Source: Chloroflexaceae bacterium (lineage in GTDB: Bacteria > Chloroflexota > Chloroflexia > Chloroflexales > Chloroflexaceae). Taken from it: a stretch of DNA of 64,000 nucleotides. Shown piece after piece: positions 30,885 to 63,386 of the stretch. The position numbers and the translations under genes are program-made. Numbering within the stretch: position 1 is the stretch's first letter; every line of letters starts with the position of its first letter. The notes beneath the pieces are model-generated. The model did no database searches, had not been told where the DNA came from, and was given only the letters and a program-made list of their open reading frames with translations. Location: positions 186,001 through 250,000 of the forward strand of contig JANWYD010000008.1 of assembly GCA_025057155.1 (NCBI GenBank), written 5' to 3'.

Positions 30885-32543
30885 TTACAACGGGCTTCCC
30901 GGCCGCCACTCAGCCGCGTCGCGGGCGGCGGCCTCGGGCGGATAGGCGTAGGCTTCGGTCGTTACGATAGGAATGGCCTCGAAGTTGTGGGTCGGCGGCG
31001 GCGAGGTGGTCTTCCACTCCAGGCCCGTCGCGTCCCAGGGATTGTTGCCGGCGATCCGCCCGGTCTTCAATGAGAGCAGCAGATAGATGATCGGAATCAC
31101 GAACCCTACTGCCAGCACCGTGGCCCCGGCGGACGAGAGCACATGCAGGATCTGGAACTCCTCAGGGTACACATGGTACCGGCGCGGCATGCCCAGGTAG
31201 CCCAGCACGAACTGGGGGAAGAAGGTCATGTTGAAGCCAACGAAGATGATCAGCGCCGAGATGCCGCCCCAGATTTCATTGTACATCCTGCCGGTCATCT
31301 TCGGCCACCAGTAATGGATGCCGCCCAGGTAGGCCATGATCGTGCCGCCGACCATCACGTAATGGAAGTGAGCCACCACGAAGTAGGTGTCGGTCACGTG
31401 AATGTCAATCGCCACCACGCCGAGGAAGATCCCTGTCAGCCCGCCGAGCACGAACAGGCCGATGAAGCCCAGAGCGTAGAGCATCGGCGTGCGGTAGCTG
31501 ATCGAGCCTTTGTAGAGCGTCGCCGTCCAGTTGAATACCTTGATCGCCGACGGAATGGCGATCAGCATGGTAATGAAGGAGAAGACCAGGCTGGAGTACA
31601 CCGACTGGCTGCTCACGAACATGTGGTGCCCCCAGACCAGGAAGCCCAGGATGGCGATGGCCATGCTAGAGAAGGCGATAAACTCGTAGCCGAAGATGCG
31701 CTTGCGCGAGAAGGTCGAGATCAGTTCGGAGATCACCCCGAAGGCCGGCAGGATCATGATGTACACCGCCGGGTGGGAGTAGAACCAGAAGAGATGCTGG
31801 AAGAGCAGCGGATCTCCGCCCAGGGCCGGGTCGAAGATCCCTACTCCCCACAGGCGCTCGATGGCCACCAGCAGCAGGGCAATGCCCACTACCGGCGTGG
31901 CCAGCACGATCACCAGACTGGTGGCGTACATCGCCCAGACGAACAACGGCAGCCGGAACCAGGTCAACCCCGGCGCGCGCATCTTGTGGGTGGTAGCGAT
32001 GAAGTTCACCGCTGTGGCGATGGATGAAAAACCCATAATGAAGGCGCCGGTGATCGTCAGGATGACGTTCGAGTTCGAGTAGGTGGAACTGAAGGGGGTG
32101 TAGAACGTCCAGCCGGTATCCACGCCGCCTAGCACCGCCGCGCTGAGGGCGAAGATGCCGCCGAACATGTACAGGTACCAGCTCAGCAGGTTCAGCCGGG
32201 GAAAGGCCAGGTCGCGCGCGCCGAGCATCAGCGGCAGGAGGAAGTTCCCCAGCACTGCCGGGATGGCCGGGATGAGAAAGAAGAAGATCATGATCACGCC
32301 GTGGAGCGTGAACATGCGGTTGTACACGTCCGACGACATCAGGTCGCCCTGGGGGGTGATCAGCTCGAGGCGCACAAAGGTGGCCGCCAACCCGCCCAGC
32401 AGAAAGAAGAAGTTGATAGCGAGCAGGTACAGAATAGCAATGCGTTTATGATCAACCGTAAACAGCCACGACCTGATCCACGCCCCCAGGTCCGGGGTGT
32501 CGTCGTGCAGGTAGCCGCGCTGCGGAAAGGCCGTCGTCGCCAT
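30885..32543 (-). CDS. ctaD: Cytochrome c oxidase subunit I, A2 type
   Basis: Catalytic subunit of a haem-copper oxygen reductase, 552 aa, with twelve or more helices. It binds low-spin haem and the haem-CuB centre where O2 is reduced while protons are pumped. Ligand regions: [12 protein letters not shown], the CuB motif [22 protein letters not shown] and [11 protein letters not shown]. The YSHP sequence replaces the glutamate of A1 oxidases (HPEVY) and marks an A2-type oxidase, as in Rhodothermus caa3. The subunit II gene lies just upstream with four bases between. Confidence 0.96.
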
Positions 32544-59593: not shown

Positions 59594-60739
59594 ATGGCTG
59601 ATGCAATCAATCTCGAAGAGGCTCTCTACCATCGGGGGGTTACGCGACGCCAGTTCCTCAAGTTTTGCGGGCTGATGGCCTCCGTGCTGGCCCTGCCCCC
59701 GCGTTATGCCGGCACGATCGCCTCGTCGCTCCAGGCTGCGCCGCGCCTGCCCCTGGTGTGGCTGGAGTTCCAGGACTGCGCTGGCAACACCGAATCCTTC
59801 CTGCGCGCCTCGAATCCCACCGTGTCGCAAATCGTGCTCGACCTGCTCTCGGTGAACTACCACGAGACAATTATGGCCCCCGCGGGCAAGCAGGCCGAGC
59901 AGTCGCTCGAAGAGACCGTCAAGAACCATCCCAAAGGGTACCTGGCCGTGGTCGAGGGGGCCATCCCCATGGGCGAGGATGGGGTGTACTGCACCATTGC
60001 CGGGCGCGCGGCGAAGGACATCGTGCGCGAAGTTTGCGGGAACGCTCTGGCGACCATCGCCGTCGGCGCCTGCGCCTGGGACGGCGGCCTGCCCGCCGCC
60101 GCGCCCAATCCCACCTCGGCGGTGGGCGTCAAGGATGCGGTGCCTGGCATCACGCTGATCAACATGCCTGGCTGCCCGATGAACATCGTCAACCTGACCG
60201 GCGTGATTGTGCACTACCTGACCTTCAAGGATCTCCCCGCTACCGACCAGATGGGGCGCCCATTGTTCGCGTATGGGCAACTCATCCACAACTACTGCCC
60301 GCGCCGCGGCCACTTCGATGCCGGGCGCTTCGTCGAGGAGTGGGGCGACACGGGCCACCGTCTGGGCTGGTGCCTCTACAAAATGGGCTGCAAAGGGCCG
60401 CAGGCCCTGTCAAACTGCCCGAGCGTAGGCTGGAATGACGCCACGAGCTGGCCCATCGGGTCCAGCCACGGCTGCGTGGGCTGCATGTCGCCGCACTTCT
60501 GGGACACCCGCACGCCGTTCTACGAACGGCTGCCGAATGTCGAGGGCTTCGGCATCGAGGCTACCGCCGATCAAGTCGGTCTGGGCGTGGTTGCCGGCGT
60601 GACTGCAGCCTTCGCGGCTCACGGCATCATCAGCGCCGTGCGCGGCGCCGCCAGGCCGATTGCCAAACACGAAAGCCCCTCCGACCAGCAGAGCGGTGAG
60701 CGCAGAGACTCGCCTTCCAGAGGCTCCAATGGCCCATAA
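59594..60739 (+). CDS. hyaA: Uptake [NiFe]-hydrogenase small subunit
   Basis: A 381-aa iron-sulfur subunit that conducts electrons from the NiFe site to the membrane. The twin-arginine signal is TRRQFLKFCG. Cluster ligands: proximal C62, C160 and C194, but the fourth place is N65 (DCAGNTES where CTGCTES is usual); distal H232, C235, C260, C266; medial C275, C294, C297. A C-terminal helix (about 325-345) anchors it next to the cytochrome b. The ATG at 59594 has CAGGAGG at ideal distance. The large subunit gene follows 120 bases later. Confidence 0.94.
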   Translation: MADAINLEEALYHRGVTRRQFLKFCGLMASVLALPPRYAGTIASSLQAAPRLPLVWLEFQDCAGNTESFLRASNPTVSQIVLDLLSVNYHETIMAPAGKQAEQSLEETVKNHPKGYLAVVEGAIPMGEDGVYCTIAGRAAKDIVREVCGNALATIAVGACAWDGGLPAAAPNPTSAVGVKDAVPGITLINMPGCPMNIVNLTGVIVHYLTFKDLPATDQMGRPLFAYGQLIHNYCPRRGHFDAGRFVEEWGDTGHRLGWCLYKMGCKGPQALSNCPSVGWNDATSWPIGSSHGCVGCMSPHFWDTRTPFYERLPNVEGFGIEATADQVGLGVVAGVTAAFAAHGIISAVRGAARPIAKHESPSDQQSGERRDSPSRGSNGP

Positions 60740-60859: not shown

Positions 60860-62572
60860 ATGGCAAAACTGGTCATCGATCCTATCACGCGCATCGAAGG
60901 GCACCTGCGGATCGAAGCGGTGGTGGAACGCGGGCGCGTGAAAGAAGCCTGGAGCAGCGGCACCATGTTTCGGGGAGTGGAGATCATTCTTAAGGGCCGG
61001 GATCCCCGCGACGCCTGGGTCTTTACCCAGCGTTTCTGCGGCGTTTGCACTACCGTGCACGCCCTCACCTCGGTGCGCGCGGTGGAAAACGCGCTCAACA
61101 TCACTATCCCCGACAACGCCCGCATCATCCGCAACATCATTGATGGCGCCCAGCACATCCAGGATCACGTCATCCATTTCTATCACCTCCACGCACTGGA
61201 TTGGGTGGACGTAGTAAGCGCCCTGAAGGCTGATCCGGGAGAAACCGCGGCCCTGGCGCAGTCCATCTCCTCCTGGCCCAAATCGAGCGCCAATTACTTC
61301 AAGACCGTCCAGAACCGGGTGAAAACCTTCGTTGAGTCGGGGCAACTGGGGCTGTTCGCCAATGGCTACTGGGGGCACCCGGCCTACAAGCTCCCCCCCG
61401 AGGCCAACCTCCTGGGCGTCGCCCACTATCTGGAGGCGCTGGACTGGCAGCGCGAGTTTATCAAGATCCACGCCTTGCTGGGCGGTAAGAATCCCCATCT
61501 CCAGACCTACCTTGTCGGCGGCATGGCCATCCCGGTGGACCCAAACAGCCAGATCGCCATCAACGCTCAGCGCATCGCCCAGATGAAGCAGTGGGCGGCG
61601 ATGGCGCGCGACTTCGTCGAGCAGGTGTACATCCCCGACCTGCTGGCGATCGCCTCCTTCTATAAAGACTGGGCCAGCATCGGCGGCGGGTTGGGCAACT
61701 ACCTGACCTACGGCGATTTCCCCCGGAAAACCATAGACCGGCCCGAAGAGTTCTGGATCCCCCGCGGCGTGGTGCTGAACAAGAACCTTGGCGCGCCGCC
61801 GTCGGTTATGGAGCAGGAACGAGTCACCGAGTACGTCGCGCACTCGTGGTACACCTACGCCGACGGAGACGACAAGGGCAAGCATCCCTGGCAGGGCGAA
61901 ACCAGCCCGCGTTACACCGGCCCGAAGCCGCCCTACGAGTTCCTCGATACCAATGGGAAGTACTCCTGGCTCAAGGCGCCGCGCTACAACGACACGCCGA
62001 TGGAGGTCGGCCCCCTGGCGCGCATGATCGTTTCCTACGCCGCCGGTCATCCCGACGTGCGGGCGACGGTAAACGGGGTGCTCCAGAAGCTCGGCGTCGG
62101 GCCCGAGGCGCTCTTCTCGACCCTGGGGCGCGTGGCGGCCCGCGGTATCGAAACCCTGCTGATGACCCGCGAGCTGGACCGGTGGATTGACGAACTGGCG
62201 GCCAATATGGCCCGCGGGGATCTGTCCATCCACAACGGCGAGCGCTGGCGCCCGGAGACCTGGCCCAGGGAAGCGGAAGGTTGGGGCTTCATGGAGGCCC
62301 CGCGAGGCGCCCTCGGCCACTGGGTGCGGATCAAGAACGGCAAGATCGAGAACTACCAGGCGGTGGTGCCGAGCACCTGGAACGGCTCGCCGCGGGATGC
62401 GCGGGGGCAGCCCGGCGCCTATGAAGCCTCGCTCGTGGATACGCCTGTGGCCGACCCCGAGCAGCCCCTGGAGATCCTGCGCACCATCCACTCCTTCGAC
62501 CCGTGTATCGCCTGCGCCGTCCATGTGTTCAACGGCAACGGGCGTGAATTGACGCGCATCCAGGTGGTGTGA
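60860..62572 (+). CDS. hyaB: Uptake [NiFe]-hydrogenase large subunit
   Basis: The 570-aa catalytic subunit that oxidises H2 at the NiFe(CN)2CO centre. The L1 motif RFCGVCTTVH holds C60 and C63, and the L2 motif DPCIACAVH holds C549, C552 and H555. The 15 residues after H555 (VFNGNGRELTRIQVV) are the peptide that a HyaD/HupD-type endopeptidase removes during maturation. The N-terminus LVIDPITRIEGHLRIE is also typical. GAGGGAGG precedes the ATG. No maturation genes are inside the window; they may lie to the right or elsewhere. Confidence 0.97.
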   Translation: MAKLVIDPITRIEGHLRIEAVVERGRVKEAWSSGTMFRGVEIILKGRDPRDAWVFTQRFCGVCTTVHALTSVRAVENALNITIPDNARIIRNIIDGAQHIQDHVIHFYHLHALDWVDVVSALKADPGETAALAQSISSWPKSSANYFKTVQNRVKTFVESGQLGLFANGYWGHPAYKLPPEANLLGVAHYLEALDWQREFIKIHALLGGKNPHLQTYLVGGMAIPVDPNSQIAINAQRIAQMKQWAAMARDFVEQVYIPDLLAIASFYKDWASIGGGLGNYLTYGDFPRKTIDRPEEFWIPRGVVLNKNLGAPPSVMEQERVTEYVAHSWYTYADGDDKGKHPWQGETSPRYTGPKPPYEFLDTNGKYSWLKAPRYNDTPMEVGPLARMIVSYAAGHPDVRATVNGVLQKLGVGPEALFSTLGRVAARGIETLLMTRELDRWIDELAANMARGDLSIHNGERWRPETWPREAEGWGFMEAPRGALGHWVRIKNGKIENYQAVVPSTWNGSPRDARGQPGAYEASLVDTPVADPEQPLEILRTIHSFDPCIACAVHVFNGNGRELTRIQVV

Positions 62573-62639: not shown

Positions 62640-63386
62640 ATGCGTAGACGCGTGTACGTGTGGGAAGTGCCGGTGCGGCTCACCCACTGGGTCAATGTGG
62701 TCTGCATTGTGGTGCTGTCGTTCACCGGCTACTACATCGGCAATCCGTACATTACCGTCAGCGGGCGCGAACCCTACGCTCCCAACTTCATGGGCCTGAT
62801 GCGCAGCATCCATTTCATTACTGCGTACATCTTCATCGCCAGCATTCTCCTGCGCACGTACTGGGCCTTCCGCGGCAATGCCTGGGCCAGCTGGCGCGGG
62901 TTGTTCCCTTTCCTGACCCGTGAAGGGCGCAAAAACATGGGGCACGCCTTGCAGTACTACCTCTTCATCCGCCGTAATCCGCCCGAGGTGGCCGGGCACA
63001 ATGCCCTTGCAGGCACGACCTATATGATCATCGTGTTCCTGTACCTTCTGATCACTTTCACCGGTCTGGCCCTGTATGGCCTGATGCATCCGGCCAGCAT
63101 CTGGCGGCCGCTGACGGCGTGGGTCTTCACCATTGTTGACGCCCAGATCCTGCGCCTGACCCACCACCTGATCATGTACCTGCTGATCGCCTTTGCCATT
63201 CACCACATCTACAGCGCCTGGCTGGTGGATATGGAAGAAGGCAATGGCCTGATGAGCAGCATTTTCAGCGGCTTCAAGTTCCTGCGCATGGACCAGCAGC
63301 CCGACTGGATCGAAAACCGCATGGCGGCGCCTCAGGTCGAACCGCAGACCCGGGCCGCGCCTTCCGAGCGCACAACCGCAGATTAA
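62640..63386 (+). CDS. hyaC: Ni/Fe-hydrogenase b-type cytochrome subunit
   Basis: A 248-aa diheme cytochrome b that accepts electrons from the small subunit and reduces quinone. It has four helices with likely haem histidines in VRLTHWVNV, RSIHFITAY, RLTHHLIMYL and AIHHIYSAW. The family loop GREPYAPNFMG is also present. The C-terminal tail (about 35 residues, PQVEPQTRAAPSERTTAD) is soluble. ATG at 62640 with AGGAGGG upstream. Together with the small and large subunits it forms a complete membrane-bound group 1-type complex. Confidence 0.94.
   Translation: MRRRVYVWEVPVRLTHWVNVVCIVVLSFTGYYIGNPYITVSGREPYAPNFMGLMRSIHFITAYIFIASILLRTYWAFRGNAWASWRGLFPFLTREGRKNMGHALQYYLFIRRNPPEVAGHNALAGTTYMIIVFLYLLITFTGLALYGLMHPASIWRPLTAWVFTIVDAQILRLTHHLIMYLLIAFAIHHIYSAWLVDMEEGNGLMSSIFSGFKFLRMDQQPDWIENRMAAPQVEPQTRAAPSERTTAD

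Follow-up and report, generated by a model that had tools for sequence, protein, structure and literature searches.

Asparagine at the second proximal cysteine position of a group 1f [NiFe]-hydrogenase small subunit from a Chloroflexaceae bacterium

The window (the whole stretch of 64,000 nucleotides of Chloroflexaceae DNA that was analysed) encodes a [NiFe]-hydrogenase small subunit with an asparagine, N65, in place of the second cysteine of the proximal iron-sulfur cluster. The enzyme is very probably an ordinary membrane-bound group 1f uptake hydrogenase, in which N65 is an inherited and selected state and the proximal cluster is either a [3Fe-4S] cluster or an asparagine-ligated [4Fe-4S] cluster. 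The substitution is a known and widespread feature of the subgroup, in print since 2016. Since it is subgroup-wide and already reported, asparagine by itself indicates neither a new kind of enzyme nor resistance to oxygen.

Small subunit and operon

The features of the small subunit gene and its neighbours are listed in Table 1. The product matched TIGR00391 at 409 bits (cut-off 179.5) as well as both PF14720 and PF01058, and phmmer returned PDB matches down to E 3.7e-92. In these PDB alignments C62 and N65 lay opposite the C17xxC20 pair of D. vulgaris, Ralstonia MBH and E. coli Hyd-1. The preliminary description had read asparagine at the place of the second proximal cysteine and had found all other ligands present. 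Both readings hold: the asparagine is real according to the ORF translation, the PDB alignment and the codon (AAC, 59786-59788), and C160, C194 and all distal and medial ligands are intact in translation and alignment.

Table 1. Positions of the hydrogenase genes and of the sites discussed in the text (window positions unless a locus or contig is named)
Feature	Position	Strand	Evidence or remark
[NiFe]-hydrogenase small subunit, group 1f lineage, 381 aa	59594..60739	+	TIGR00391, PF14720, PF01058, PDB matches
Tat signal RRQFLKF, residues 18-24	59645..59665	+	translation, alignment
Proximal cluster motif C62-A-G-N65	59777..59788	+	translation; aligned with C17xxC20 of solved structures
E121 in VEG motif	59954..59956	+	opposite VEG of E. 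coli Hyd-1
C160, proximal cluster ligand	60071..60073	+	present in 177/177 rows
D163, Asp where an aromatic residue is usual, 3 residues past C160	60080..60082	+	alignment
C194, proximal cluster ligand	60173..60175	+	present in 177/177 rows
Distal H232, C235, C260, C266 and medial C275, C294, C297, complete set	60287..60484	+	translation, alignment
C-terminal hydrophobic helix, residues 325-353, likely membrane anchor	60566..60652	+	AF2 secondary structure, Hyd-1/MBH alignment
[NiFe]-hydrogenase large subunit	60860..62572	+	PF00374, 794.8 bits; nickel motifs RFCGVC, FDPCIACAVH
Hydrogenase b-type cytochrome subunit, membrane electron acceptor	62640..63386	+	TIGR02125, 150.8 bits (cut-off 121.5)
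Two adjoining B12-binding radical SAM genes	L176:5643-8775 = contig C8 249642-252774, from window 63642		between cytochrome b and HupD
HupD protease	L176:9109-9618		beyond the radical SAM pair

Both arginines of the Tat signal, R18 and R19, were invariant among relatives in the alignment. The helix at residues 325-353 was predicted with low local confidence in the AF2 model and matched the anchor region of Hyd-1 and MBH in the alignment; it is likely a membrane anchor. The model as a whole had a mean pLDDT of 63.8, with values below 50 across most of residues 228-331. Its confident part is limited to the greater part of the N-terminal domain, and it is unreliable in the medial and distal region. 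A Foldseek search with this model re-identified hydrogenase small subunits only.

The order small subunit, large subunit, cytochrome b, HupD protease recurred across phyla, in the majority of those loci whose length would reveal it. The pair of radical SAM genes that lies between cytochrome b and HupD here was also found in three close relatives (L003-L005) and was missing from the equally close L006 and from all other loci. A role for these genes as a component of the system was ruled out, given their presence in only three other loci, all close relatives. Elsewhere in the window, a heme-copper oxidase subunit I is encoded on the minus strand (31116-32444), and a second copy lies on contig C11; the aerobic oxidase attributed to the organism at the outset is borne out.

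Distribution of asparagine at position 65

Scanning bacterial and archaeal genomes yielded 80 loci with small subunits 58-96% identical to that of the window, from Chloroflexota including Roseiflexus, Nitrospirota, Acidobacteriota and Geobacteraceae. Position 65 was Asn almost throughout these loci, Asp in some and Cys in few. The scanned loci, the small subunits from a phylum-wide search and six references from the PDB alignments were combined into an alignment of 177 rows, in which column 65 held Asn (106 rows), Cys (37), Asp (34) and no other residue. On the midpoint-rooted maximum-likelihood tree, the window enzyme fell in a well-supported, starred clade (97) of 123 rows, with 99 N, 16 D and 8 C; sampling was by similarity to the window enzyme, so that these residue counts, like those of the full alignment, are not census values. 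Members of the clade came from Chloroflexota (including Roseiflexus), Nitrospirota, Acidobacteriota and Geobacteraceae.

Switching among Cys, Asn and Asp at position 65 amounted to about 16 state changes on the tree, and Asn occurred in both the 1f and the 2a lineages. Cys rows branch near the base of the 123-row clade. This pattern suggests that cysteine was lost once, early on, that Asn and Asp replaced each other afterwards, and that Cys was regained twice inside the clade. In one distant Chloroflexota small subunit (L152), Asp stands at the place of the first proximal cysteine (TDNGC) and the second cysteine is kept.

Asparagine or aspartate at this place has been reported for group 1f enzymes of Roseiflexus, Geobacter and Frankia, and asparagine for group 2a (PMC5364354, 2016). 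Earlier, a Cys-to-Asn change at proximal position 2 was described for HupS of Nostoc punctiforme (PMC4070099, 2014) and a Cys-to-Asp change at the same position for a Geobacter, and an Alteromonas enzyme with the engineered substitution C81N retained measurable H2 evolution activity (PMC4070099). The preliminary description had considered asparagine an unusual ligand, a claim to be withdrawn if alignment showed Asn to be standard and already described for the subgroup. That is what was found: Asn is the majority state (99 of the 123 clade rows), is present in group 2a too, and had been described before.

Assignment to group 1f and comparison with known enzymes

From its sequence, the window enzyme belongs to the group 1f lineage, a label based on the organisms named in its clade and on statements in the literature. 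It grouped on the tree with enzymes of Roseiflexus, Geobacteraceae, Acidobacteriota and Nitrospirota, and the features of a membrane-bound respiratory-type enzyme are present (the Tat signal RRQFLKF, the helix at residues 325-353 and the TIGR02125 neighbour). Groups 1h, 2a and 1d do not fit. Group 1h enzymes have Asp at position 65, and their representative HofK is far away on the tree. HucS of group 2a clusters apart from the window enzyme, together with the other hydrogenase of the genome. At positions 19 and 120, where group 1d enzymes carry two additional cysteines for the [4Fe-3S] cluster, the window enzyme has G64 and G165.

The enzyme resembles group 1f hydrogenases of Roseiflexus, Geobacter and Acidobacteriota in the Asn or Asp at the second proximal cysteine position (PMC5364354), in the Tat signal, the C-terminal anchor and the gene order, and in having close sequence relatives in Roseiflexus and Geobacteraceae. 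It differs in the two B12-binding radical SAM genes found in its genus, and in having D163 instead of an aromatic residue, though D163 is common to many relatives. With Huc of Mycobacterium smegmatis (group 2a; 7uur/7utd) it shares Asn at the same place (CSGN in Huc) and three proximal cysteines. However, Huc is distant on the tree, has Gln and Leu at the H232 and C260 columns and contains three [3Fe-4S] clusters, whereas the window enzyme has the usual ligands in its distal and medial sets, along with a partner gene for cytochrome b. HupS of Nostoc punctiforme, also group 2a, shows the same Cys-to-Asn change (PMC4070099) but has Gln in the distal set and Lys in the medial set, and a [4Fe-4S] with an Asn ligand has been reported as its proximal cluster (PMC6616624). 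HofK of Ralstonia (group 1h actinobacterial-type, 5aa5) has a non-Cys residue in the same alignment column, but it is Asp rather than Asn, and Val occupies the medial Cys275 column. The parallel first drawn with the Ralstonia 3Cys1Asp enzyme is one of position only: HofK shares the column but is distant on the tree.

Chloroflexales strains are known to encode group 1f and/or group 2a hydrogenases (PMC6776052), and the content of this genome fits that report exactly: besides the window enzyme, contig 5 encodes a second hydrogenase. The latter (L002; contig C5 near 121864-122685) is a group 2a enzyme close to M. smegmatis Huc; its small subunit matched M. smegmatis HucS over the full length (E 1.5e-185), with CSGN in both. 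A HypD gene lies close to it (C5:113961). In HydDB the role of group 1f, entered as 'oxygen-protecting', is listed as unresolved (PMC5037454).

Oxygen tolerance

The preliminary description had linked asparagine to oxygen tolerance. In its strongest form this would make N65 the mark of an oxygen-tolerant enzyme like the Ralstonia 3Cys1Asp hydrogenase of group 1h, with an altered proximal cluster that keeps turnover going in air. Position 65 is indeed Asp in HofK and in a 17-row group 1h clade of the alignment and tree, the Asn-bearing Huc is O2-insensitive (PMC10017518), atmospheric H2 oxidation has been reported for strains with group 1f enzymes (PMC6776052, PMC7174314), and the genome encodes heme-copper oxidases, one of them within the window. 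However, the Asn-bearing hydrogenase of Methylacidimicrobium tartarophylax is reported to be inactivated by oxygen (PMC5364354), and that organism respires H2 only below 40 uM O2, to which expression may contribute according to its authors (PMC6813726). The authors of the Huc study explained its O2 insensitivity by narrow gas channels and gave the clusters the part of tuning potential (PMC10017518), and Cys, Asp and Asn interchange inside one clade of our tree. We consider this explanation unlikely. Because one Asn-bearing enzyme is O2-sensitive (Methylacidimicrobium) and another O2-insensitive (Huc), asparagine is not sufficient for tolerance, and the link is unsupported as a rule; Asn alone does not predict O2 tolerance and instead suggests an altered proximal cluster. 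Given the heme-copper oxidases of the organism, O2 tolerance is possible on other grounds.

Alternative ligands and maintenance of N65

Another residue, D163 or E121, could have become the fourth ligand in place of the lost cysteine, with asparagine a spectator. Position 163, within CAWDGG, is usually Phe, Tyr or Trp. D163 was frequent together with Asn65 (53 of 82 distinct 1f-like rows) and missing from the 23 other rows with Cys65; yet Phe or Tyr occupied this position in many Asn65 and Asp65 rows, and D163 occurred in one Cys65 row. With about four changes on the tree, too few to call D163 and Asn65 linked, no support came from independent pairs, and D163 as a compensating ligand was rejected as an association in counts without phylogenetic independence. 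E121 is nearly invariant (Glu in 176 of 177 rows, Asp in one), but rows with Cys as the ligand have it just as regularly. A substitute ligand of either kind is improbable.

Asparagine was also found in independent same-genus records and genomes with 91-96% identical small subunits, one of which uses AAT, a synonymous codon. At the 77 loci scored, codon 65 was AAC in 51, AAT in 13, an Asp codon in nine and a Cys codon in four. Same-genus small subunits diverge mainly at synonymous codons; between the window gene and L003, 104 codons differed synonymously and 19 nonsynonymously. N65 is thus, as judged by these comparisons of sequence, a maintained and selected state and neither error nor decay, because Asn is conserved with AAC/AAT variation, divergence is mostly synonymous and the gene order recurs. 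Gene decay, or a mistake in sequencing or assembly, has next to no chance of being the explanation. Independent records and genomes share the Asn while varying in its synonymous codon, which rules this explanation out, and the intact operon and the predominantly synonymous divergence contradict decay; no points in favour of either were found.

Cluster type and proposed function

As an ordinary group 1f uptake hydrogenase, the enzyme would work as follows, by homology and gene order: the small subunit would be exported through the Tat system together with the large subunit and anchored by its C-terminal helix, and electrons from H2 would pass through three iron-sulfur clusters to the b-type cytochrome and on to the quinone pool. 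The proximal cluster would be held by three cysteines (C62, C160, C194) and a non-thiolate fourth site, which implies either a [3Fe-4S] cluster, by analogy with Huc, or an Asn-ligated [4Fe-4S] cluster, by analogy with Nostoc HupS. Either type would shift the potential of the cluster adjoining the active site.

The two precedents, both from group 2a, disagree on cluster type. Huc contains three [3Fe-4S] clusters, the proximal one included, as determined by cryo-EM and EPR (PMC10017518). Nostoc HupS is reported to contain two [4Fe-4S] clusters and one [3Fe-4S] cluster, the proximal one being a [4Fe-4S] whose ligands are three Cys and one Asn (PMC4463661, PMC6616624). No measured proximal cluster of a group 1f enzyme was found in the literature searched. 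An altered proximal cluster, as first proposed, is likely, given the [3Fe-4S] proximal cluster of the Asn-bearing HucS. More tentatively, group 1f may have reached a [3Fe-4S] proximal cluster independently of Huc by way of the Cys-to-Asn change, with the raised potential underlying the atmospheric H2 oxidation of 1f strains, a possibility that we would put somewhat short of even.

The residue is not special to the window enzyme, yet the survey sharpens the question of which type of cluster an asparagine site holds. Beside Huc and Nostoc HupS, for which differing clusters have been reported, a group 1f enzyme would be a useful third case.
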